Origin: Thiotrichales bacterium
GTDB lineage: Bacteria > Pseudomonadota > Gammaproteobacteria > Beggiatoales > Beggiatoaceae
DNA length: 64,000 bases
Reading direction: 5' to 3'
NCBI GenBank assembly: GCA_016745035.1
Contig: JADGDE010000006.1
Coordinates: 62,001-126,000, forward strand
How positions within the stretch are numbered: the first letter of the stretch is position 1; every line of letters begins with the position of its first letter. Under the pieces are notes generated by a model that worked only from the letters and a program-made list of their open reading frames with translations, ran no database searches and was not told where the DNA came from. The translations under genes were made by a program, and so were the position numbers. Below, piece by piece: positions 16,776 to 44,823 of the stretch.

Positions 16776-17618
16776 TCAATCTGCCATGCTTTTCTTCAGC
16801 GCATCTAGCATCGTGCTATCTTCTGTCATTTGCCCATATCCTAAGGCTGTTTTAGCCCCAGCACCGAGATAGCTTAATGCTTCGGTTAAATATTCCGCCA
16901 TCTTGCTAATCTCTTCTTGCTTTTCTGAGTTTCGGCTCGCCAAGGTGAATAAAAACTTGGCTTTTTTTACCACTAAAAAGGGAATGGGAACAGGTTCATA
17001 CCAATCAGCAGGAGGATTCTCTTTCGGTTTGTCATGTCCATTTTGATACCAAGGACTATAATGGGGAGTCATGATGTCCATGCCGAGTTCAACAGGTTCT
17101 ATGGGTAAGGCATCAAAAAAAATACATTCGCCCACCTGTTGCTCATTATTTTCTGGGTCTTTGGAAGTTGAACCAAAGTTTTTCCGTAAGCTTTCTTTAT
17201 CCTGTTCTTGCCAATGTTCTAACCAATGCCGTAACATGCCTTTGACACTGCTGCCACTTAGATAAGGAACAGCCAAAGTTGGATGCCATAAAAAACCATT
17301 TTCTATAGGATGCGAGCTGCCAAGCCCTGTGACAAAATGATAATCCGTTTCAAATACCAAGGCACTGCCCGCTAAACTATCAATTAAACGCAGTTGTTGT
17401 AAGGCAGCTTGTTTTAAGGTATCAGCATTGCCACAGTGTTTCCCTACCGATTCAATCCAACGTTGCTTGTCTGTTTTTGTCTCTTTGTCATTATTTTTAT
17501 CCAGTTGATAATCTTCATCATAACGGTTAAAAAAACGCTCAAACCAAAGTCCTGCATGTGCGCCTGAAGGACGCTTATCAGGGTGTTTAAATTGATATAA
17601 GGGTAAAATTTTACTCAT
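16776..17618 (-). CDS. cmr6: Type III-B CRISPR RAMP protein Cmr6
   Basis: The 280-residue protein shows Cmr6 features: a G-rich PYLSGSSVKGMLRHWL segment (residues about 118-137), GLGSSHPIENGFLWHP before it, and a C-terminal YLGAGAKTALGYGQM glycine-rich loop. Cmr6 caps the backbone filament of the Cmr effector at the crRNA 3' side. It is the last gene of the leftward cmr operon, overlapping cmr5 by 8 bases. A 27-bp direct repeat and a C10 tract lie just beyond its stop. Family length and motifs are intact. Confidence 0.9.
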   Translation of the reverse strand: MSKILPLYQFKHPDKRPSGAHAGLWFERFFNRYDEDYQLDKNNDKETKTDKQRWIESVGKHCGNADTLKQAALQQLRLIDSLAGSALVFETDYHFVTGLGSSHPIENGFLWHPTLAVPYLSGSSVKGMLRHWLEHWQEQDKESLRKNFGSTSKDPENNEQQVGECIFFDALPIEPVELGMDIMTPHYSPWYQNGHDKPKENPPADWYEPVPIPFLVVKKAKFLFTLASRNSEKQEEISKMAEYLTEALSYLGAGAKTALGYGQMTEDSTMLDALKKSMAD

Positions 17619-18027
17619 GATTCAATATCGCTATGGCAAATTTTTTTAACCAAATTAAGTATAACTGCGCTTCAGTTTGTGCCAGTTGATATTGTCCTAA
17701 TTCGCTGTTGGTAATGGCTTCGGTTAAAGATTGGGACTTAGAAAACGGCTGTGTATGGCTGGACTCTGGTTCTGATGATTGACATAACCATGCTTGTAAT
17801 ATGTCGTATAAAGTTTGGTAAGCTTCTGCTTGTAACTTATTATCTGATTTTGCTTTACTACGACAAAAGGCGACTGCTTGACCTAAACCATTTTGGTGAA
17901 TCATTGCAGGGAATGATTTGACATAACTGACAAATTTCCCTTCAGCAGTAAATTTTTCATTTGCCTTTAGGCGATTTATTTGTGCTAAGGCAGATTTAGC
18001 CCGTACTTGTTCTTGGTTTGCGTGCAT
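17611..18027 (-). CDS. cmr5: Type III-B CRISPR small subunit Cmr5
   Basis: The 138-residue helical protein fits Cmr5 (small subunit, alpha-helical bundle), with KFVSYVKSFPAMIHQNGLGQAVAFCRSKAK and C-terminal QTEAQLYLIWLKKFA helices that are typical of the family. Two adjacent ATGs (18030 and 18027) follow a strong GGGAGGT; the spacing favours 18027. The start overlaps the Cmr4 stop, showing tight coupling. Cmr5 lines the Cmr complex and contacts the target RNA. Confidence 0.85.
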   Translation of the reverse strand: MHANQEQVRAKSALAQINRLKANEKFTAEGKFVSYVKSFPAMIHQNGLGQAVAFCRSKAKSDNKLQAEAYQTLYDILQAWLCQSSEPESSHTQPFSKSQSLTEAITNSELGQYQLAQTEAQLYLIWLKKFAIAILNHE

Positions 18028-18920
18028 CATGCACCTCCCTGAGCCTGTGATAACAAGCTCACATAACACCACCCCATGCCCACGGTTTCATTGCCGCCAA
18101 TTTGTAACCATGGGCGTTCAAACATATCTTGCACTTGCCCTAATACCCAATCTGCTTTGTTATCATTGTCTTTTTTACGCACATCAGAGGCTTGTAGGGG
18201 CGCATATAACAGGGTTTCAGGGGCTAAACTTTCTTCATACCATAAGTTTTGTGAGGCTTTTTGTTCGTCTAAAACATTATGTGCTTGTACTGGGGTAGCA
18301 TGTTGCACTAGGTACTTAAATTGAGTGTCGCTAATCAATAATAGTTTTTCCTCTAGTTGCTGCTGGAAGTCTGTACGGTTGTTGACAAATTTTGTAAGTA
18401 GCTCGATGAGGTTTTTTAGCTCTTTTTTATCTCCAGTAGCAGAAAAAGCGTATTCTTCTAAATAAATTGTTTCAGCTTTATCTGAATAATGTTTCGCATT
18501 CAAGCCTTTTATTTGTAATTGGCTAAGATTTGGTACGTTATCAAACTTTAAGTCTAAATAATCTAAATCACGTAATAAGCGTTCAATATTGGCTGGACAA
18601 CACAACCAACGAAACGTACCTTGTAAAGAGCGTACGGGAAACAGTAGCAAACGTGCATCACCAACGTTTAATGCCCCAGCATAGCCCCCTTTTTCCTTAT
18701 TTGCTGCTTCGGTATCAGGACCATAAATCAACTGAACGCTTTCTGAGTCTAATTTGGTTTCGGCATGACAACGCAATGCCCCTTTCATTGAAGAGCCATA
18801 AACACAAGGCCAAGCGGTAATTTTTTCTCGTTGGATTGGTAAATCAATCACGCCCATGTCTTGTCCACTGCCTGCATGTAGGGGGGTGTGGGTCATTAAG
18901 GCTAAAATAGCTGTATTCAT
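18027..18920 (-). CDS. cmr4: Type III-B CRISPR backbone RNase Cmr4
   Basis: I place the start at 18920, after AAGGAATAACTCA, giving 297 residues; the longer frame adds 16 unconserved residues. The protein begins with LALMTHTPLHAGSGQDMG and VIDLPIQRE, in which D26 corresponds to the target-RNA cleavage aspartate of Cmr4. GSSMKGALR follows. A C-terminal GGNETVGMGWC is the RAMP glycine-rich loop. Cmr4 subunits form the helical backbone and cut target RNA at 6-nt intervals. All key residues are present, so RNA cleavage is likely active. Confidence 0.92.
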   Translation of the reverse strand: MNTAILALMTHTPLHAGSGQDMGVIDLPIQREKITAWPCVYGSSMKGALRCHAETKLDSESVQLIYGPDTEAANKEKGGYAGALNVGDARLLLFPVRSLQGTFRWLCCPANIERLLRDLDYLDLKFDNVPNLSQLQIKGLNAKHYSDKAETIYLEEYAFSATGDKKELKNLIELLTKFVNNRTDFQQQLEEKLLLISDTQFKYLVQHATPVQAHNVLDEQKASQNLWYEESLAPETLLYAPLQASDVRKKDNDNKADWVLGQVQDMFERPWLQIGGNETVGMGWCYVSLLSQAQGGA

Positions 18921-18924
18921 TGAG

Positions 18925-20274
18925 TTATTCCTTCCATGGGGCGATAGCAAATTGCCCATGATGACCAAATTTTTGTTGTTGAATGCGAGCTTTTGCTAAG
19001 CTTGCAGCCACTTCGGACTGGTTTGTTTCAACGGTGCAAAACCAAACGCTGCCTGCGGGGAGATAAGTTTGGGTAGGACGGGTACGGTGTTGTGCTAAAT
19101 TCCAGCCGCCATAACGCAAGGCTTTATCTACTATTGCACTGTGAATCGTTACTTTAATGTCCTTTAATTCTTTGAAATAACCAGAGATAGGTAATTGCTG
19201 GTTTTCCTCTTCAACGATAAAACCTGCTGGTAGTGGTATGGCGTGCTCTGTTGGGCTAGGAAACAAATTGATGAGCATAAACCCTTTATCGTTCTTAGCC
19301 GGTTGATGTAATAAAGTTTTACTCCCTTTCTTAGTGGGGGTAACTTCCACAGCAGCTAAACGTCCTTCTCCCCCTAGACGTAGCAAGTCTTTAAAAGGTT
19401 TTTTGAGCGTATAACCCGTTAACTCTATCTCTAAAGCGACATCCGGTTCTGGGCGTACGTGTTGGGTTTGATACAGTAAACCTTCTTGTATCGTGCGGGT
19501 TTTATTATCTCGCCCAATACCAACATGGGTTTCCATTTGGAATAATGTGTCTTTTTTTATTAAATCAGTTGCTTGTGGTAGTTTGCCACTTAATACATTG
19601 TGGAAGTCCACCTCCGTCATTAGATATTCTTGTAGATTTGTATATTGGCTATGTTTATCAGCCCCTTTGACACGGGGGAAGCGTATCTCTCCCAAATCCG
19701 ATAACATTGGCTCTCCCAAACTTAAAAAGGCCAATTTTAATTCTGCGTCGGCATCTTTGAGTTTTTCTTTCACTAAAATGGCGGGTACTGGATATAGGCG
19801 TTGATTACCTTGGCTTAAAAATACACCTGAAAATTTTAGTGGTGTAAGGTCGTCAGGATAACCAAGGCAATGAATCCAACGGTTTTCGTCTCTTTGCTCT
19901 AGTGGTTTTAATTCTACCGGTTTGTATTCTTGTGTTGGTTGTGTTTTTTTACCCTGCCATCGTTGCAACCAGGATTGTGTTTCTTTAGGCTGGTTTTGCT
20001 TTGGAATAGATTGATGCAATTCTTCAATATAAGCGGCATATTTATGCCAATCAACCCCCTCACGTTCTCCTATCAAGTAACGTACTGCCCCTATCAGACT
20101 AGAACTGGGGGGAGGAAATACTGAATTTAAGAGGCTATCACCTAAAGCATCCATTGGTCTTGCTTCACGGAAAAACCAACTGTCCAAAGCATTAAAACGC
20201 CAAAGAGTGACTGCTTGCTTTTTAGCTTTTGCTGGCTTTTGGTGGTTAGCTTTTTGGGGTTTCTTTTTGCTCAT
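18925..20274 (-). CDS. cmr3: Type III-B CRISPR protein Cmr3
   Basis: This 449-residue RAMP protein begins after a Lys/Gln-rich leader with TLWRFNALDSWFFREARPMDAL, the Cmr3 signature, followed by FPPPSSSLIGAVRYL. A C-terminal RYGGWNLAQHRTRPTQTYLPAGSVWF segment is also typical. Cmr3 binds the crRNA 5' handle and pairs with Cmr2. The start overlaps the Cmr2 stop by 29 bases. The basic 20-residue N-terminal extension is unusual and may be a later addition. Confidence 0.88.
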   Translation of the reverse strand: MSKKKPQKANHQKPAKAKKQAVTLWRFNALDSWFFREARPMDALGDSLLNSVFPPPSSSLIGAVRYLIGEREGVDWHKYAAYIEELHQSIPKQNQPKETQSWLQRWQGKKTQPTQEYKPVELKPLEQRDENRWIHCLGYPDDLTPLKFSGVFLSQGNQRLYPVPAILVKEKLKDADAELKLAFLSLGEPMLSDLGEIRFPRVKGADKHSQYTNLQEYLMTEVDFHNVLSGKLPQATDLIKKDTLFQMETHVGIGRDNKTRTIQEGLLYQTQHVRPEPDVALEIELTGYTLKKPFKDLLRLGGEGRLAAVEVTPTKKGSKTLLHQPAKNDKGFMLINLFPSPTEHAIPLPAGFIVEEENQQLPISGYFKELKDIKVTIHSAIVDKALRYGGWNLAQHRTRPTQTYLPAGSVWFCTVETNQSEVAASLAKARIQQQKFGHHGQFAIAPWKE

Positions 20275-22210
20275 CTATCTCACTCTCCAACCAAATACCT
20301 TCTTTTGCTAGAAACCGCACTAAAAATGCAGCACTAGCCCGTAAGCTGTGGCTATATTCATATGTCACTTGCCCATCATCTTTTTGAATACGCCGACATA
20401 AACGACATTGTGATAACAAGCCTTTAATATGGGCTTTGGCATCTTCTATGGATAAAGTTCCATCGACCAATCTGGATTGCTTATACTCAGCAGCCAATAA
20501 GGACAATTGTCGTTCTTGTTCTTCTATAAATTCAGGGTTATTTTCACTGAACCACTTAACATCTTGCTCTAAAATGTTGAACAAATCTCGAATCCGATAA
20601 AAAAACTGATTGGCCGGTAAAGGATCGTAACCATTTTTACTTCTAAAATGCGTTAAACTCTGCTCAATGATTAAGCCTTGTTGAGCCTCTAGTTTTGCCA
20701 GTGCCCAAGGCATTGACCACTCTAAAACCAAACCGCTGTTTTTCCAGACCCGTACCGCTACACTGTCCCGCCCTGTTTGGTCTTTTGCCACATTATCTAG
20801 CAAATCATGGGCATTATGTAGCATGTGGGTTAGTGGTGTGCGAATATGAGCAAATTGAATTGCCGCCGATAAGGTACTATTTATTTGCTCTTGTTCAAAA
20901 CAACGTTTATAAAATTGTTGTAAAGTATCAGCACATGCCAGTGCGTTCTCTAAGGGTAAAAAGGCCAAAACATCGTCGCCGCCGGCGTAGATTAAAAAAC
21001 CACAATGGTCTTCAACATGCTCTTTCACTTCATCGGTAAACTTAGCCAAAGCTCGGCTAATTTTGACATCATTGCCTTCTGTTTTTAAGGCATTGCCTAA
21101 ATTGTCTCCATCCATTAATAAGATGGCATAAAAAGGTGATGGTGGGTCTACATGAGTTTGGTTGTTTACGTCATTGAGAGCCTTAATGACCTTCTCTAGT
21201 TTTTCAGCTTGTTTCTCATCCGAGGTTTTATTCAAACGTGATTGCAAAGCCGATTCAAAAAATGTCTCTCCATCTAGGTAAGTAGTCCATTTACGTTCAC
21301 CTTTTGCATTTTTAAGGCAAGGCAAGACATTGTCTTTTTCCCAATAGCTAAAAACAGTTTTCGCTTCATGGCGAAATGTTTTTAACAAATCATAATGCTT
21401 TTCATATTCAGAGACCTTTAATAAACGTCCAAGCCAATGGGTTGCCGCCATAAAAGAAACTGAAGGCACAGCACTGGGCAATTGCCAACCTTTTAGCCGC
21501 CAACCGCCGGGCATTTTTCTAACATTTATCTTTTCAAAATGATAAACAAAACGCCGTTTAATAAAGCCCAAGGCGGACAAGCATTCTCCCTCACGAAAAT
21601 CGGCTTCAAATTCTTTTTGGATATGCTGCCAAAAGGTAGATAAAGCTTCACTGTGCGGTGTTTCAATGCCTGATAATTCTTGCCAACCGCTCATCATCAT
21701 ACACTTCAAGCCCGGTTCTGGTGCTGGCAAATAACTGCGAATAAATTTGCGTTGTTCTGTGACTGATGTGCTTTTTTCTGGGGCTAAAATCCAATTGATG
21801 TCCCAAAAATTTGCCACTTGTCGTTGCCAAACAATTTGGGAGGCGGGTTTATCTTTTAGGTAAGCTTTTAAATCTTGTTCATAAACTTTTTTTGCCAACG
21901 CTTCCCAAGCACAACGCACATCTTCAACGACCAATTGACCATTAAACTTTTCATGCACTTCTGCTCGAAAATGATTAGGCACACAACCTTGTGTTGGCTT
22001 TTGACCATGTTGCTCACCCCGAACAAAAGCCAAAAAGTTTTCATTTGCTTCAGGCAATAATACGGCTTGAGGGCATTGCTTTTTAACTGACTGCATTGCC
22101 ACAGCAGAGAGCCAAGACAATAAAAATGAACCACCCCAAAAATCACGGGTACGACGTGCTTGCGAAACAAAGTCTTGTACAGGACCTAGGGTGAAATCAA
22201 AATATGGCAT
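20246..22210 (-). CDS. cmr2: Type III-B Cas10 (Cmr2), no HD domain, GGDD present
   Basis: The 654-residue Cas10 begins at once with TLGPVQDFVSQARRTRDFWGGSFLLSWL, the segment that in longer Cmr2 proteins follows the HD nuclease domain. The HD region is therefore absent. A zinc-finger-like part and two Palm domains follow. The second Palm carries GGDD at residues 410-413 (YAGGDDVLAF), the cyclic oligoadenylate synthase active site. C-terminal Cys residues (SQCRLCRRI) belong to the D4 region. This predicts signalling rather than DNA cutting by this subunit. It directly abuts the Cmr1 stop. Confidence 0.92.
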   Translation of the reverse strand: MPYFDFTLGPVQDFVSQARRTRDFWGGSFLLSWLSAVAMQSVKKQCPQAVLLPEANENFLAFVRGEQHGQKPTQGCVPNHFRAEVHEKFNGQLVVEDVRCAWEALAKKVYEQDLKAYLKDKPASQIVWQRQVANFWDINWILAPEKSTSVTEQRKFIRSYLPAPEPGLKCMMMSGWQELSGIETPHSEALSTFWQHIQKEFEADFREGECLSALGFIKRRFVYHFEKINVRKMPGGWRLKGWQLPSAVPSVSFMAATHWLGRLLKVSEYEKHYDLLKTFRHEAKTVFSYWEKDNVLPCLKNAKGERKWTTYLDGETFFESALQSRLNKTSDEKQAEKLEKVIKALNDVNNQTHVDPPSPFYAILLMDGDNLGNALKTEGNDVKISRALAKFTDEVKEHVEDHCGFLIYAGGDDVLAFLPLENALACADTLQQFYKRCFEQEQINSTLSAAIQFAHIRTPLTHMLHNAHDLLDNVAKDQTGRDSVAVRVWKNSGLVLEWSMPWALAKLEAQQGLIIEQSLTHFRSKNGYDPLPANQFFYRIRDLFNILEQDVKWFSENNPEFIEEQERQLSLLAAEYKQSRLVDGTLSIEDAKAHIKGLLSQCRLCRRIQKDDGQVTYEYSHSLRASAAFLVRFLAKEGIWLESEIDEQKETPKS

Positions 22211-23224
22211 TTAAATCCCCTGAAAATGTTCATTATCGAGCAGCTCAAACATAGGTTCTTCGTTAGGCTCTTTATTGATGGCGGGATGGAAAGTGGCTGG
22301 AATATAGAGCAATAAAATGACAAACTGTTCTTGGATAGGGTGGATATGGATAAATAATGGACTAGAACGGCGTTTGTTATCCTTATCGTCTAAAGGTAAA
22401 CCAAAAATTTGTCTATCATCACCTTTAACGAATGTTGTTTGTGTGTCTTTAATCTTCTTTTTAAGCGTTTTATACATCTCCCCGATTTCATTATGAGCAA
22501 CTATCGCGGAAGTATATGTTTGACTAACTCGGCACTGGGTTTGTTGGCTAATCGCTGTATAGGGTGGTTTTCTATCTTCTCCTTGGTTTAAAAATTCATA
22601 TAGGTTGTCTTTATAATCCTGTAGACTACTTTTAGCGAAAGGAACAGGCTTGTTTTGGTAACTTAAATGGACTAAAGCTAGGCTACCAAAGCCCTTACGT
22701 GACCGTGACCCCATGCCGCCACAAAGGCCAATTACCTTCAATACATTGCATAATTGTTCAATTTGTTTTTCATTAATTATTTTATGCTTCAATATCACGG
22801 TGACAGAGAAACCTATCTCATCGCTGCTATTCCAAGCATTTTTATCTACATGCTTATCATCATTGTCTGATCTAAATAAACCATAACCAAGAAAGGCACT
22901 GCCTTTATCAGTTTTTGGAAAGTCAACGGCGGAAATTGTCTCATTAACATGTTGTTTAATCTTTAACAAAAACAAACCTTGCCCACCTTTGTTGTCCTTA
23001 TCTTTGGCTTTACCAAATAAGGCGGCTTCGTTTGCGTACAATTCTTTTAAACGAGCATTGTCATCATGACCTTGGGTTGTGTGCCAGTTTAAGGCTCGCC
23101 ACCAAAAACGCATCACCCCTTTAAAACTTGCGCCATTAATCCGTGCTAAGTCTTCTTGTTTAGCACTGCCTAAAAACATCGGGGTGACAATCTGATAATC
23201 CGCAACAAGGGTTTTTATGTTCAT
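22211..23224 (-). CDS. cmr1: Type III-B CRISPR RAMP protein Cmr1
   Basis: The 337-residue protein starts with the Cmr1 pattern YQIVTPMFLGSAKQEDLARINGASFKGVMRFWWRA (split here: TPMFLGSAKQ then SFKGVMRFWWRAL). It has GGMGSRSRKGFGSLAL as its central glycine-rich loop. Cmr1 sits at the crRNA 3' end of the Cmr complex. It lies 5 bases after the small membrane-protein gene and immediately before Cmr2. Motifs are intact. Confidence 0.9.
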   Translation of the reverse strand: MNIKTLVADYQIVTPMFLGSAKQEDLARINGASFKGVMRFWWRALNWHTTQGHDDNARLKELYANEAALFGKAKDKDNKGGQGLFLLKIKQHVNETISAVDFPKTDKGSAFLGYGLFRSDNDDKHVDKNAWNSSDEIGFSVTVILKHKIINEKQIEQLCNVLKVIGLCGGMGSRSRKGFGSLALVHLSYQNKPVPFAKSSLQDYKDNLYEFLNQGEDRKPPYTAISQQTQCRVSQTYTSAIVAHNEIGEMYKTLKKKIKDTQTTFVKGDDRQIFGLPLDDKDNKRRSSPLFIHIHPIQEQFVILLLYIPATFHPAINKEPNEEPMFELLDNEHFQGI

Positions 23225-23229
23225 GAGAG

Positions 23230-23745
23230 TTATACTTTGCTGGTAATGAGAGACACCATTAAATCGTTGAGTAACCGCCCTCTAAAATTAACGACAATAG
23301 CATTACGATAATTATTAATCTGAGTCATAATTTCAGGCTTAATGCTACCCGGGGGAGCATAAACAATTAATGCAATGGAATCTTCCATTTCACTGAGTAC
23401 AGCATCAAAGTTATCTTCAAAATCAGACCAGCAGACTAAGAAAACCGAACAGTTTTGGGATTTAGCACGGCTAATATCATTGGCCAAATTAATTTTGATA
23501 ATATTTTTTGTTTCAAATATAGAGGAGTCGGTTAAGAGGTTAAGCAGGCTGTCTGTGCTGCTAGCGTTGCCAAAAATAGCTATTTTTCGTCCAACCAAAG
23601 CCCTGCCTAAGCGATATAGAACAGGAATAATTTTTCTAAAGAATAAGACAATACCTATCAAAGCTAAGATGGTAGAAATGACTAAAGAAACATATCCACT
23701 ATATTGTAGTGTCCAGTCAAATATCTTTTCGAGTGTTTCTAACAT
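23230..23745 (-). CDS. Membrane-anchored Rossmann-like protein in cmr operon (candidate effector)
   Basis: The 171-residue product has one strong transmembrane helix at about 17-36 (VSLVISTILALIGIVLFF), a short basic linker (RKIIPVLYRLGRALVGR), then an alpha/beta domain of five predicted strands alternating with helices: KIAIFGN, NIIKINL, SVFLVCW, IALIVYAPP and NAIVVNF. The domain would face the cytoplasm, with a positive-inside linker. It is the first gene of the cmr operon, 5 bases before cmr1. The layout, one helix plus a Rossmannoid domain, resembles Cam1-type CARF membrane effectors, but I see no diagnostic CARF motif. A new cOA-responsive or membrane-acting effector is inference. Confidence 0.7.
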   Translation of the reverse strand: MLETLEKIFDWTLQYSGYVSLVISTILALIGIVLFFRKIIPVLYRLGRALVGRKIAIFGNASSTDSLLNLLTDSSIFETKNIIKINLANDISRAKSQNCSVFLVCWSDFEDNFDAVLSEMEDSIALIVYAPPGSIKPEIMTQINNYRNAIVVNFRGRLLNDLMVSLITSKV

Positions 23746-23972: not shown

Positions 23973-25634
23973 ATGCAAACCTCGTCCTTTCTCCCCCTCC
24001 GCGCCCTGAGCATCACGCTGCAATTCACCCAATCAAGCCGCTTTCCCTTTTTTCATCAACCCATTATCACCGCATGGCTTCGGCACTTGGTTGGTAAAAC
24101 GCCTCACTATGAACACTACATCAGCATTGATACCCCTGAGTCAGGTTGTATCCACTACCCCAAACACAGCCGCTATTGCTTTAGCCTCGTTATTTTCCCC
24201 GGTGGTGACGAACTCCAAGACAAAATCATCCAGCAACTGCAAACCCTGCCCCACAGTGTCAAAAAACGTGACAAAAAACTGGCGATTCGGGATAACGTCA
24301 TTCTTCACAGTATCGAACCACTCTACCACTATACTGAAAACGACCTAGAGGAGGACATTAACCTTTGGCAATACACCCCTAGCCTGATTATCCGCACCCT
24401 CTCGCCGCTGCGCATACTGTTACCGAAAACCGAACGGGAACAAAAGCAATTACAAAACGAATCCCGCTATTGTCGCTTTGCCCAAACAGTTGATTTTGAC
24501 CACTTACAAAAACGCCTGTACGACACCTATAACGACATCTTGCGTCGTGAAAAACAGCCCTCTATGCCCTATACTGAGGACAATGCCGAATTACAATACC
24601 GTCAACTGTCGTGGCTAAAACTCCACTACAGCAATGAACACCAAGCCCAAAAACCAATGGGGGGCTTGCTTGGGCTAATACAACTCGATTGCCGCCGTTT
24701 TAGTACCGAACAATGGCGCAACTGGATATTAGGGCAATACATCGGCATCGGACAACGTCGTGTTTTTGGTTGGGGGCGTTACCGCCTTGAAACCCCAGAA
24801 GGACAATATAAACTGCCTCGCAGTGAGACAGCCTCTAGCCTGTTAAGCCGTGCGGCAACACTGGAAAACCTCAAACAAGCTTGTCAATCTGCCCCTGATG
24901 TACAGCGCTTAAAAAGCCTCAGCAATAAGTTACAACAGCACAATTACAAGGTTCCTGAACTCCAAGGTATATTGCTGGCAAAAGCGGATAAACAATCTCA
25001 AGCACTTGCCATCCCACCACCTGATGACCGCATTGCTCAGCGTGCCGCCGCCAAAACCCTTGGGGCTGCTTTTGATGCGCTCATGCGCCAAAGTGAACCG
25101 CATTACCGCCAACACCGTAGCCGTCACAGCGCTAAAAAGGCCGTGCAAGAATATTATCAAAAAGGCTATCGCTGGGTATATCAAGCTGAAATAGCCGATA
25201 TTTTTGGCAGTTTACAATGGGGAGTGATAGATACTCAGCTCCGTGCCTTGTTTGGAGACGAGCCACTAAACCACTTTGTCATGCGCTGGCTCACGGCTCC
25301 TGTACGTTATCAACGGCGAAGTGTTTACCGTCAACAAGGTTTACCTGAAGGCTCACCCCTTAGCCCCCTGATAGCCAATATTATCTTGGATGCTTTTGAT
25401 AGAGAACTCGATACCAAAGGCTTTAAACTGGTGCGTTATGCTGCTGATGTCGTCCTATTGTGTAAAAACAAACAACAAGCCATCACAGCCGGAGATGTGG
25501 CTGCCAATGCCCTGAGACAAATTGGCTTAGAGCTGAATCAAGATAAAAGCCGTATTTGTTGTTTTGCAGATGGTTTTCACTGCTTTGGGTATGTGTTTGT
25601 TAATGAGTTGGTGATTGATAGTGAGGGGTTTTAG
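23973..25634 (+). CDS. Cas6-reverse transcriptase fusion lacking Cas1, RT motifs altered
   Basis: The 553-residue protein has an N-terminal Cas6 domain (about 1-280) with SRFPFFHQPIITAWLRHLVG near the start and the glycine-rich GIGQRRVFGWGRYR at about 258-272. Cas6 cuts pre-crRNA in the repeat. A group II-like RT domain follows (about 330-545): PPPDDRIAQRAA, GLPEGSPLSPLIANIILDAF, the C motif and GFHCFGYVF. Related proteins are Cas6-RT-Cas1 fusions, but this one stops right after the RT domain. Motif A reads AEI (E406) where ADI is usual. Motif C reads YAAD (489-492) instead of YADD. The RT is probably inactive while Cas6 looks intact. Array 1 starts about 50 bases downstream. Confidence 0.85.
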   Translation: MQTSSFLPLRALSITLQFTQSSRFPFFHQPIITAWLRHLVGKTPHYEHYISIDTPESGCIHYPKHSRYCFSLVIFPGGDELQDKIIQQLQTLPHSVKKRDKKLAIRDNVILHSIEPLYHYTENDLEEDINLWQYTPSLIIRTLSPLRILLPKTEREQKQLQNESRYCRFAQTVDFDHLQKRLYDTYNDILRREKQPSMPYTEDNAELQYRQLSWLKLHYSNEHQAQKPMGGLLGLIQLDCRRFSTEQWRNWILGQYIGIGQRRVFGWGRYRLETPEGQYKLPRSETASSLLSRAATLENLKQACQSAPDVQRLKSLSNKLQQHNYKVPELQGILLAKADKQSQALAIPPPDDRIAQRAAAKTLGAAFDALMRQSEPHYRQHRSRHSAKKAVQEYYQKGYRWVYQAEIADIFGSLQWGVIDTQLRALFGDEPLNHFVMRWLTAPVRYQRRSVYRQQGLPEGSPLSPLIANIILDAFDRELDTKGFKLVRYAADVVLLCKNKQQAITAGDVAANALRQIGLELNQDKSRICCFADGFHCFGYVFVNELVIDSEGF

Positions 25635-25684: not shown

Positions 25685-26828
25685 GGTGTGGAGGTGTTAG
25701 CCGTTTAGGCTATTGAGACTTTAGGTCTACATAATATTGTCCGGCTTGTTTTATTGTTGCAGCAGCGTTAGCCGCTTAGGCTATTGAGACTTTAGCAAGG
25801 GGTACTCAATATGTCCGTCTTCAGTTGCAGCAGCGTTAGCCGCTTAGGCTATTGAAACTTTGCTGTGACTTCGATCGGGTGTGAATGATTGTTGCAGCAG
25901 CTCCAGCCGTTTAGGCTATTGAGACCTTTGAGAGCTAGCAGTCGCAAGGCGCGCCAAAGGTTGCAGCAGCTCCAGCCGTTTAGGCTATTGAGACCCTTTG
26001 TTGCTTGCAAGTAGCTATTTGGTAAAGCTGTTGCAGCAGCTCCAGCCGCTTAGGCTATTGAAACGCAACCAATTTGCAATCGTTTTGTTGGCACTATGGC
26101 GTTGCAGCAGCTCCAGCCGCTTAGGCTATTGAAACTTATGATATTTAGATTCGTGGTATCTGGCGCCATCGTTGCAGCAGCTCCAGCGCGTAGGTTGGGT
26201 TGACGAAGGAAACCCAACATTTTCAGGCTTTGTTTGTGTTGGGCTTCATAAATTCAGCCCAACCTACGAGCTGATTTTGAAGCTAGAAAAAGAGGTGCTG
26301 TTGCAGTAGCTCCAGCCGCTTAGGCTATTGAAACTTTGGTAATCTCCTTTAGAGACTCAATTGGTTTTGTTGCAGCAGCGTTAGCCGCTTAGGCTATTGA
26401 GACTAGCCATCAACCAGGTGTTCATCACCTTCATATAAAAGTTGCAGCAGCGTTAGCCGCTTAGGCTATTGAAACCTTTGATGAGCATGAACCATCCCGG
26501 TTTAAAGTTCTGTTGCAGCAGCTCCAGCCGCTTAGGCTATTGAGACCTTTGCGCAGCCATAGATGCCGAGCACGACATTCGTTGCAGCAACGTCAGCCGC
26601 TTAGGCTATTGAGACTTATATCCATAACAACACAATAATAATCTCATCGAAGGTTGCAGCAGCGTTAGCCGCTTAGGCTATTGAGACGCTTTATTTGTGA
26701 ATGTGATAAGGACAATTTTAGAAGGGTTGCAGCAACGTCAGCCGCTTAGGCTATTGAAACTTTATTCACTTACGGGGCGACCGTGAACTAAAAGTTGCAG
26801 CAGCGTCAGCCGCTTAGGCTATTGAGAC
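25685..26828 (+). CRISPR. CRISPR array 1a, 16 repeats
   Basis: Sixteen 35-base repeats start GTTGCAGCAGC and end CTTAGGCTATTGARAC, giving the ATTGARAC 8-nt handle typical of Cas6 products, so transcription is rightward. Starts are 25685 (degenerate 5' half), 25756, 25824, 25891, 25960, 26030, 26101, 26171 (truncated), 26300, 26369, 26441, 26512, 26581, 26653, 26726 and 26794. Spacers are 32-38 bases. Three central variants occur (GTTAG, CTCCAG, CGTCAG). No leader like those of arrays 2 and 3 precedes it. Array divergence suggests it no longer acquires spacers. Confidence 0.95.
26188..26271. mobile_element. Small palindromic element inserted in an array 1 repeat
   Basis: About 83 bases with near-perfect terminal arms, CGTAGGTTGGGTTGA (26189-26203) and TCAGCCCAACCTACG (26256-26270), start inside the repeat at 26,171 after its first 17 bases. 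The remainder of that repeat is missing. Size, arms and lack of coding capacity suggest a MITE or REP-like element. Confidence 0.6.
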
Positions 26829-27760: not shown

Positions 27761-27866
27761 CTTGCAGCAGCTCCAGCCGCTTAGGCTATTGAGACCTTAG
27801 TCATCAACTCATGTTTTTGGGATGCTGATAAGTTGCAGCAGCGTCAGCCGCTTAGGCTATTGAGAC
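27761..27866 (+). CRISPR. CRISPR array 1b, distal fragment
   Basis: Two repeats (27761-27795, first base C in place of G, and 27832-27866) with a 36-base spacer resume array 1 after vapBC, in the same orientation. A further degenerate repeat-like stretch (GTTACAGCACGTAGTCAG, from 27,899) may mark the old end. Confidence 0.85.
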
Positions 27867-38781: not shown

Positions 38782-39579
38782 ATGAACGATCCACAACAAC
38801 TGGCAAATAAAATCATGGAATCGCCGCTGGGGGATTTGATTTGGTTTGTGCTTGCCGCCTTGGCAATTTTTATCATGGTCAAAGTCTTGTTATTCGTCGG
38901 CGGTAAAGCCTCGGGCATTGTCGCGGGCTTGTTTAAAATGCTATTGGGGCTGGCGATTATAGCCGTGGCTTATTTTGCCCTCGCCAGCAAAGGCTGGATT
39001 AATCACGACGGGGTGATGCGCTGGTGGCAACAAAGTCAAACCCAAATCAGCCAAACGCTACCCAACAAGGTATTATCGCTCGATAGCATCAGCCAGTGGT
39101 TTAGCCCGCCCACAGCACCAGTTGCCCCAGATATGCCAGCAGCCCCAGTTGAAAAACACGCCAAGCCCATCACCCCGCGTAATCCTGTACTGAAAGCGCC
39201 CGCCCCGGTGGCACAAACCACGCAGCCGTTGCCGAATGTGTTTCAAAAGTATGCACAGCAAGTCCACCCGCAAAAGCCCCTCAGCCCTGCACCCAGCGCT
39301 GAAGTTACCCAGCCGCTGCCGAATGTATTTCAAAAATACGCTAAGCAAGTTCATGCGCCCAATAGCCAGCACCTCAGCGTGTTTGAAAACGGCGATACCA
39401 AACACGGTTATTTTACCTCGACCAATTGCCAAACCGCACAGCCGATACCGACGGAACATATTACCGTTAGCGTTAATCTGACTTGTGTGGGGAATTGTGA
39501 GCATAAGGTAGAGACAGGGCAGATTTGGACAACGCCGACAGGGAAGTTGTGCCAGACGACGCGGGTTAAGTCTCAATAG
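38782..39579 (+). CDS. Two-TM protein with Pro-rich repeats, stop inside CRISPR repeat
   Basis: The 265-residue frame from 38782 begins one base after the lysozyme stop. It has two hydrophobic segments (IWFVLAALAIFIMVKVLLFV, and about residues 50-75), then a Pro/Ala/Gln-rich region with two copies of QPLPNVFQKYA followed by QVH. A C-terminal Cys-containing beta domain follows. Its last codons and TAG come from the first CRISPR repeat of array 2, so the natural C-terminus may have been longer. Probably an envelope protein of the element. Confidence 0.6.
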   Translation: MNDPQQLANKIMESPLGDLIWFVLAALAIFIMVKVLLFVGGKASGIVAGLFKMLLGLAIIAVAYFALASKGWINHDGVMRWWQQSQTQISQTLPNKVLSLDSISQWFSPPTAPVAPDMPAAPVEKHAKPITPRNPVLKAPAPVAQTTQPLPNVFQKYAQQVHPQKPLSPAPSAEVTQPLPNVFQKYAKQVHAPNSQHLSVFENGDTKHGYFTSTNCQTAQPIPTEHITVSVNLTCVGNCEHKVETGQIWTTPTGKLCQTTRVKSQ

Positions 39580-39958
39580 CCTAAGCGGCTGGAGCTGCTG
39601 CAACAATACGGTGTTGTGCCACGAATTAGCTTTTGTTTGTCTCAATAGCCTAAGCGGCTGGATCTGCTGCAACTTTATCGATGAACGAATCTTCCTACTT
39701 CGACTTAAAGTCTCAATAGCCTAAGCGGCTGACGTTGCTGCAACGGCGTAAATGAGATTGCATTCAAATAAGTTTCTAAGTCTCAATAGCCTAAGCGGCT
39801 GACGTTGCTGCAACCGGCAAGTGTCAAGCCGTTGACAAAGTTGCAAAGGAGTCTCAATAGCCTAAGCGGCTGGAGCTGCTGCAACCTGTAAGTTAACTGA
39901 AAATGGCAAGTTAAAACTTCAACGTCTCAATAGCCTAAGCGGCTGGAGCTGCTGCAAC
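39570..39958 (-). CRISPR. CRISPR array 2, 6 repeats
   Basis: Six 35-base repeats read on the minus strand as GTTGCAGC...ATTGAGAC, at 39570, 39639, 39710, 39780, 39851 and 39924, with spacers of 34-38 bases. The leader lies to the right, so transcription is leftward. Distal repeats carry variants (GATCTGCTG, GACGTTGCTG) while the leader-proximal ones match array 3. Same repeat family as array 1. Confidence 0.95.
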
Positions 39959-40225
39959 AGCACCCCTTTTTCCACCTTCAAAATCAGTTAGTTGCAACCC
40001 ACTTTGGGAGAAGCTCATCATTTTTGCAGGACAACCGATGTATTGTTGCACTTTTACCTCCGTTTTGAGCACAAAAACAACGCTAAGTATCTGATTTTTA
40101 ACAGGTGGAGCAACTTTCTTTAGAAAGTGGTTTAATATTATCAAATAATAGTATGAATGTGAAATACTTTTTAAAAAAACACTTATAACCATCTTAATAA
40201 TATGGTTACTAACTCCCCAAAATCA
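39959..40225 (-). promoter_or_regulatory. Array 2 leader
   Basis: About 265 bases directly beyond the first repeat are nearly identical to the sequence beyond array 3 at 44,448-44,714. Identity is almost complete for about 185 bases, then decays. This is the expected leader with promoter and integration signals. Open frames in it are shadows. Confidence 0.75.
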
Positions 40226-40392
40226 TAAAATCAACAGGTTTGGCATTAGAGGCATAGGTTCAGCATTAAGCCAATGTGCGTTTGAATGTCAATAAATAAT
40301 CTTGACTATTTAGCTCTAAATATCTCATTTATATTGACTTTATACACAAAAGTCTCTATAATTGATACTAACATTTAAGGGAGCGATGCAAG

Positions 40393-43544: not shown

Positions 43545-43559
43545 CCAGTGCTTATCCTA
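43522..43559. repeat. 12-bp inverted repeat at array 3 trailer
   Basis: TAGGATAAGCAC (43522-43533) and GTGCTTATCCTA (43548-43559) are perfect inverted arms with a 14-base loop. The right arm replaces the first bases of the terminal CRISPR repeat (starting at 43558), so the repeat appears truncated by this sequence. A recombination site or insertion scar is possible; a terminator for the leftward array is also possible. Confidence 0.6.
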
Positions 43560-44447
43560 GCAAATAGCCTAAGCGGCTGGAGCTGCTGCAACTTTAGGTG
43601 AGCAAGTTAAAGTGACCGATAAGATAAAGTCTCAATAGCCTAAGCGGCTGGAGCTGCTGCAACCTTGACCTATGTGCAGGTCAAACAGTGGAGTCATCCG
43701 CCTCAATAGCCTAAGCGGCTGGAGCTGCTGCAACGCTCCAATTCCGCGTGACCATCAAAATAATTGAAGAAAGTCTCAATAGCCTAAGCGGCTGGAGCTG
43801 CTGCAACGAAGCGCGAATAATCCAACTCCAACTTACACTGAAAGTCTCAATAGCCTAAGCGGCTGGAGCTGCTGCAACTGGGGGCTGTTAACATTAATGT
43901 TGGTGCTGCCAAAGGTCTCAATAGCCTAAGCGGCTGGAGCTGCTGCAACACAACATTTTTCGTGTTACACACGATAGCATGCAAAGTCTCAATAGCCTAA
44001 GCGGCTGGAGCTGCTGCAACGTTATTTGCGGCCTCGAAGATAAAAAAGCAAGTGAAAGTCTCAATAGCCTAAGCGGCTGGAGCTGCTGCAACATTAGCAA
44101 GTGACTACTTGCCAACTTTAAAAGAAAGGTCTCAATAGCCTAAGCGGCTGGAGCTGCTGCAACTTTCATTGTGGGCTTTATGATTTTTGCATATCTAAAG
44201 TCTCAATAGCCTAAGCGGCTGGAGCTGCTGCAACTGATGAATTTGTGAATAAGGTATACAGCAAATACGAAAGTCTCAATAGCCTAAGCGGCTGGAGCTG
44301 CTGCAACCCCAAACTGTGTCCAAGTTCCCGAAGGCACTCTTCTGTCTCAATAGCCTAAGCGGCTGGAGCTGCTGCAACGGTATTTGTTCAACGATGGCGC
44401 CGGCATCAAAGGGTCTCAATAGCCTAAGCGGCTGGAGCTGCTGCAAC
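43558..44447 (-). CRISPR. CRISPR array 3, 13 repeats
   Basis: Thirteen repeats begin at 43558 (5 bases degenerate), 43629, 43700, 43773, 43844, 43915, 43986, 44058, 44129, 44200, 44273, 44344 and 44413. Spacers are mostly 36 bases (34-38). Apart from the trailer repeat and one base at 43,701, the repeats are uniform. The leader is on the right and transcription is leftward. Uniformity suggests the most recently active array of the three. Confidence 0.95.
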
Positions 44448-44714
44448 AGCACCCCTTTTTCCACCTTCAAAATCAGTTAGTTGCAACCCACTTTGGGAGA
44501 AGCTCATCATTTTTGCAGGACAACCGATGTATTGTTGCACTTTTACCTCCGTTTTGAGCACAAAAACAACGCTAAGTATCTGATTTTTAACAGGTGGAGC
44601 AACTTTCTTTAGAAAGTGGTTTAATATTATCAAATAATACTATGAATGTAAAAATATTTTTTTAAAAACCTCTATAACCACTTTAACAGGATGGTTACTC
44701 GCTCCCCAAAATTA
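44448..44714 (-). promoter_or_regulatory. Array 3 leader
   Basis: Nearly identical to the leader of array 2. The two arrays therefore derive from duplication or parallel insertion of a leader-repeat unit. The first 185 bases next to the repeat are the conserved part; frames inside are not genes. Confidence 0.75.
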
Positions 44715-44823
44715 CAAAATCAGCACCTCTGGCATCTGTGCGATAGGTTTCGCAAAGGCGATAGAGGCGTATTCAAATACAGTTAAAGAAAGCAGAATAT
44801 AACAATCATAACATCCCTTAAAT

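Follow-up and report, generated by a model that had tools for sequence, protein, structure and literature searches.

The closest described systems are the Cas6-RT-Cas1 fusions of clade 8 of Toro et al., including those of Marinomonas mediterranea MMB-1 and Thiomicrospira (structures 7KFT/7KFU). In the Thiomicrospira protein, the engineered substitution D540A abolishes reverse transcriptase (RT) activity, mutants of RT and Cas1 leave Cas6 processing unchanged, and R37A in the Cas6 domain reduces repeat processing from 97% to 12% (PMC8102632). The protein described here shares the order and fold of Cas6 and RT with these fusions, as well as their adjacency to cmr genes and CRISPR arrays, whereas it has no Cas1 domain, no cas2, and alterations in all three catalytic RT motifs.

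Related arrangements without Cas1 have been noted before. A footnote in Toro et al. 2017 lists one Cas6-RT of clade 8A without a recognizable Cas1 (PMC5541045), i.e., the same shortened architecture, on whose catalytic state, recurrence, or context the main text of that paper gives no information. An RT beside cas6 without cas1 is likewise found in Methanosarcina (branch 11; PMC5513706), but there the two are separate genes and the RT was independently recruited from a group II intron, while our protein is a fusion minus its Cas1. Type III loci served by adaptation modules in trans also comprise effector genes and arrays without adaptation genes, but the assembly studied here has no cas1 at all and retains the remnant of the fusion. 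Thus, Cas6-RT without Cas1 is already known, and a literature search conducted mostly outside subscription journals found no paper that takes up a dead RT, recurrent losses, or orphan forms.

We have analyzed a 64,000-nt stretch of DNA from a Thiotrichales bacterium of the Beggiatoaceae, hereafter called the window, together with its genome assembly (a 90-contig draft of 4.18 Mb that is 99.6% complete). Judging from comparative sequence data, it is probable (roughly 0.78) that the gene in question is a shortened Cas6-RT-Cas1 descendant that serves as the only Cas6 of a type III-B system, with a dead RT and with adaptation lost in cis.

Results

A Cas6-RT fusion without Cas1 beside a type III-B module

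The fusion gene and its neighbors are arranged as follows:

16776..23224, minus strand: cmr6-cmr5-cmr4-cmr3-cmr2(cas10, GGDD kept)-cmr1, type III-B effector genes
23230..23745, minus strand: small membrane protein, a type III ancillary by its match to the PADLOC "1TM Effector" profile (E 4e-47)
23973..25634, plus strand: Cas6-RT fusion frame of 553 aa without a Cas1 domain (from the frame, Pfam, and the 7KFT alignment)
23973..24821, plus strand: Cas6 domain, about aa 1-283, which retains H28, R37, and the glycine-rich loop GIGQRRVFGWGRY
24900..25607, plus strand: RT domain, about aa 310-545, predicted fold intact, catalytic motifs altered
25188..25190, plus strand: E406, motif A catalytic Asp to Glu (D406E; alignment)
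25347..25349, plus strand: E459, invariant motif B Gln (LPQG) to Glu (Q459E; alignment)
25443..25445, plus strand: A491 (GCT), Ala in place of the first Asp in the YADD of motif C (D491A; alignment)

The interference module is complete (cas10/cmr2 with GGDD, cmr1, and cmr3-6), and a search of the genome also returned Cas10 and RAMP genes. Positions 12270-50252 contain plasmid- and phage-like genes encoding primase-like, DNA ligase, FtsK-like, ParM-like, beta clamp, and GPD baseplate proteins as well as two integrases. Given these surroundings, the CRISPR system probably resides on a mobile element.

An earlier, sequence-only reading of this DNA had described one open frame from 23973 to 25634 with an intact-looking Cas6 domain that stops right after the RT, and all of this agrees with our results. 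Start and stop are where it placed them, and the frame ends about six residues past the last conserved RT block and about 60 residues ahead of where Cas1 would start in Candidatus Venteria. The Cas6 half matches PF10040 with 25.5 bits, barely over the 25-bit cut-off, and none of the six Cas6 columns that are invariant in 29 intact relatives is altered; R37 corresponds to the active-site R37 of Thiomicrospira Cas6 in the 7KFT alignment (constant offset of three). The RT half matches RVT_1 with 92 bits. Thiomicrospira Cas6-RT-Cas1 (7KFT) is the best solved relative, with residues 4-549 aligned by phmmer (E 2e-72), and an AlphaFold2 model of the 553-aa protein (pLDDT 91) finds 7kft as its top match in Foldseek, so that the fold of the RT half is predicted to be intact.

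Relatives were collected with an alignment query, as a single-protein query gave no related loci. Aligning the window protein to Cas6-RT-Cas1 proteins confirmed the motif columns (E406, A491) and the absence of a C-terminal Cas1. The window protein is 41-45% identical to intact relatives within its family, and in the Cas6 tree it is sister to the Cas6-RT-Cas1 of Candidatus Venteria, which points to common descent with this family. The derivation proposed earlier is backed by both synteny and phylogeny: the protein is derived from the Cas6-RT-Cas1 family and is no longer a member of it as an adaptation protein.

The only PF10040 Cas6 in the genome is the Cas6-RT protein itself. The 35-nt repeats of the window retain a 4-5 bp AGCC/GGCU stem and an AUUGARAC tag; Cas6 is predicted to cut at the base of this stem, which would yield an 8-nt AUUGARAC tag.

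Decay of the reverse transcriptase

The Glu406 in motif A and the YAAD in motif C that had been pointed out before both fall into columns that hold an invariant Asp in the 29 intact relatives, and in the 7KFT alignment E406 faces the motif A Asp while A491 faces the first Asp of FADD. A third change had escaped that reading and affects motif B, where the window has GLPEGSP instead of the usual GLPQGSP. The motif A Asp, the motif B Gln, and the motif C Asp-Asp are invariant in intact relatives, and the window is altered in all three motifs. Seven more invariant RT columns, also absent from the earlier reading, bring the altered ones to 10 of 30 (R343Q, E404Q, D406E, F410I, R422Q, Q459E, D474A, D478E, D491A, and F493V). 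Among columns conserved to at least 90%, the window alters 14 of 51 RT sites compared to six in the next worst sequences. A bias toward polar or nonpolar positions among the altered invariant sites is not significant (p 0.25).

By the 7KFT alignment with its constant numbering offset of three, A491 corresponds to Thiomicrospira D540. The window thus natively carries the RT-killing, Cas6-sparing substitution known from this protein, plus two further motif changes. Since the equivalent D540A kills the Thiomicrospira enzyme and two more motifs are changed in addition, we infer that the window RT is catalytically dead, as had been suspected. Separately, an otherwise intact Cas6-RT-Cas1 of Thiomargarita (L063, genome G020) reads RFTDD where RFADD is expected in motif C.

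Loss of the fused Cas1 in relatives

The fused Cas1 has been lost about five times. One loss is that of the window, and another falls in the clade of genomes G001, G036, G019, G034, and G033, which has 100% support and the intact G020 as its sister. The others concern G006, G344 (paired with an intact Thiothrix protein at 100%), and the genus g75; in this count, the position of G006 is weakly supported, and G060, which ends at a contig edge, was left out. The fate of the RT differs between these lineages. Large RT parts are missing in G034, G006, and G344, and G019, for which no Cas10 was detected, has stop codons directly after Cas6, which indicates that the RT is not always needed. G036 and G001 share a mid-RT truncation, and the remnant evolves with a dN/dS of 0.37 (Fisher p 0.006 versus 1). 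The RT remnant of G001 (L004, 1672-1759) contains a 43-nt palindromic repeat element twice, both times in frame, and is not broken by it. In G033, a Candidatus Parabeggiatoa, Cas6-RT is joined directly to Cas2 (L051/L059, 3027-5084), with intact RT motifs and a missing Cas1 domain, and at a second locus of this genome (L055) Cas2 follows an RT frame with no Cas1 in between. An uncultured Thiodictyon encodes Cas6-RT and Cas1 as two successive frames (L085, 137-3545), i.e., as a split fusion.

In genus g75, an orphan Cas6 with a decayed RT is present in four of four species (L144, L145, L146, and L177; context in L168-L170). RAMP genes were found in none of the four species and Cas10 in none of the three tested, while Cas1 is present in one of three species tested. 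No array lies within about 8-10 kb of the orphan gene, which an EAL/PAS gene precedes in at least two of the species; a type I system may exist elsewhere in these genomes. The motif-less RT remnant evolves under strong purifying selection, with a dN/dS of about 0.07-0.12 and saturated dS.

Constraint on the RT remnant

On a fixed tree of 31 sequences, the terminal branch of the window measures 1.16 in RT versus 0.61 in Cas6. This ratio of 1.9 compares to a typical 0.6 (rank 1 of 31; z 3.0), so the RT branch has sped up about threefold relative to Cas6 with its frame still open. In drift simulations with substitutions only and indels left out, a 244-codon frame in which a third of the invariant sites have changed stayed free of stops in about 1-2% of cases (P ~0.01-0.02).

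It had been proposed that selection on Cas6 keeps the frame open and that the dead RT is either a relic or has a structural role. The first proposal holds only in part: RT codons lie 3' of Cas6 and are not protected by selection on it alone, and an RT that had drifted neutrally to this extent would be expected to contain stops (P ~0.01-0.02 for an open frame). Between the two fates of the RT, the comparison leans slightly toward residual structural constraint because drift would leave stops and because RT remnants of relatives are under purifying selection. The strongest competitor of our reading is that the RT codons are pure, unconstrained read-through, with Cas6 alone mattering and the open frame owed to a recent loss or a lucky lack of stops. 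The accelerated RT branch, the 10 of 30 altered invariant columns, and the relatives that lost large RT parts or stop right after Cas6 all suit this explanation, but few simulated frames stay open, even with indels uncounted, and the remnants of G036/G001 and g75 are under purifying selection; we regard it as a serious though somewhat doubtful alternative. As the dN/dS values of these relatives show, an RT remnant can remain under constraint even when it no longer catalyzes, and by this comparison a non-catalytic role of the window RT is possible. The evidence for a structural role is comparative, as the relatives searched included no second genome of the window's genus. With less certainty, the RT half may stay in shape under weakened constraint by buttressing Cas6, rather than drifting freely.

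Missing adaptation genes and the CRISPR arrays

No Cas1 domain was detected in any contig of the assembly and no match to Cas2 (PF09827) either, which bears out the earlier claim that adaptation by this protein is lost and extends it to adaptation genes genome-wide. A merely frameshifted Cas1 was considered and rejected, since none of the reading frames of the window contains a trace of Cas1. Intact counterparts exist on a plasmid of Vibrio aerogenes, which has the same divergent gene order with Cas6-RT-Cas1 and cas2, and in Candidatus Venteria, where both genes are present and about 290 nt precede the array. The window itself has the following arrays:

25685..26828, plus strand: array 1, 15 recognizable 35-nt repeats and one interrupted copy
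26188..26272, strand not assigned: inverted-repeat (MITE/REP-like) insertion splitting an array 1 repeat (read directly)
27761..27866, plus strand: mini-array with two copies of the array 1 repeat
39570..39958, minus strand: 6-repeat array with a leader at about 39967-40260
43558..44447, minus strand: 12-repeat array (full repeats, 11 of them identical) with an additional degenerate terminal repeat and a leader at about 44456-44749

Array 1 begins 50 nt past the cas6-RT stop with a degenerate first repeat and no leader, while the leaders of the 39.6-kb and 43.6-kb arrays are 91% identical over 295 nt. The earlier reading mentioned neither these leader-bearing arrays nor the repeated loss in relatives. 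Array 1 lacks the leader that its two sister arrays keep, which fits a deletion that took this leader along with Cas1 and Cas2. The array 1 repeats combine variants of their core (GTT/TCC/GTC) and of their end (GAGAC/GAAAC) in many ways, and this mix suggests recombination between arrays rather than plain leader-proximal repeat copying. Contig C90 carries three further copies of the same repeat.

The identity of 11 of its 12 repeats implies that the 43.6-kb array gained spacers more recently than the heavy divergence of the RT suggests. The two do not fit a simple clock, which could be explained by adaptation in trans, recent import of arrays, or fast change of the RT. If Cas1-Cas2 encoded on an unassembled or lost plasmid served the leader-bearing arrays, then their conserved leaders, the near-identical repeats of one of them, and the location of the locus on plasmid/phage-like DNA would make sense; adaptation in trans between CRISPR types has been reported (PMC8092290), and a draft of 90 contigs could miss a plasmid-borne cas1. 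However, the lack of any Cas1 or Cas2 domain in an assembly of this completeness makes such a helper unlikely.

Spacers of the window arrays often start with TTT, CTTT, or CCTTT, and TTT lies within the first five bases of 20 of 30 spacers against an internal expectation of about 2.7. Such starts may be left over from 3' purine tailing by an RT-Cas1, or they may reflect a protospacer preference. The signal is weaker in other RT-Cas1 arrays. Over 263 spacers from RT-Cas1 arrays, pyrimidines make up 59% of the first three positions (z 3.1), which is so weak a general dA-tail signature that it was set aside as evidence of RT history. Most window spacers searched against phages had no protospacer match.

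Discussion

Taken at its most probable, the window protein would act solely as the Cas6 endoribonuclease of a type III-B (Cmr) system borne by a mobile element, serving the arrays of the window. An RT that retains some unusual activity outside spacer acquisition, e.g., RNA binding or nucleotide transfer by E406/D492, would fit the predicted intact fold, the conservative nature of the E406 substitution, and the retention of D492 and K525, but it is quite improbable given that the protein has lost the Gln of motif B as well as the first Asp of motif C, and that in Thiomicrospira the Asp-to-Ala substitution is by itself enough to abolish activity. Least credible is an artefact in which a misjoin between RT and array dropped Cas1, as repeats near the breakpoint could favor in a draft of 90 contigs: ten RT codons of invariant columns have changed independently, which rules out a single base-call error, no contig contains Cas1 or Cas2, and several unrelated genomes show the same architecture.

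A shortened Cas6-RT with a dead RT and adaptation lost in cis has a bolder extension, namely that the RT repeatedly became a pseudo-RT scaffold of Cas6 after Cas1 loss and that in g75, where the gene is conserved in all four species, this scaffolded Cas6 left type III CRISPR and acts on unknown RNAs. We consider this extension speculative and on balance unlikely.

The RNA-recording part of RT-Cas1 immunity appears dispensable and is often lost while Cas6 stays, and these natural mutants make the dependence of Cas6 on its RT neighbor directly testable. The window locus would illustrate how a CRISPR system can live off a fixed memory, and the orphan gene of g75 suggests how a CRISPR nuclease may find its way out of CRISPR.
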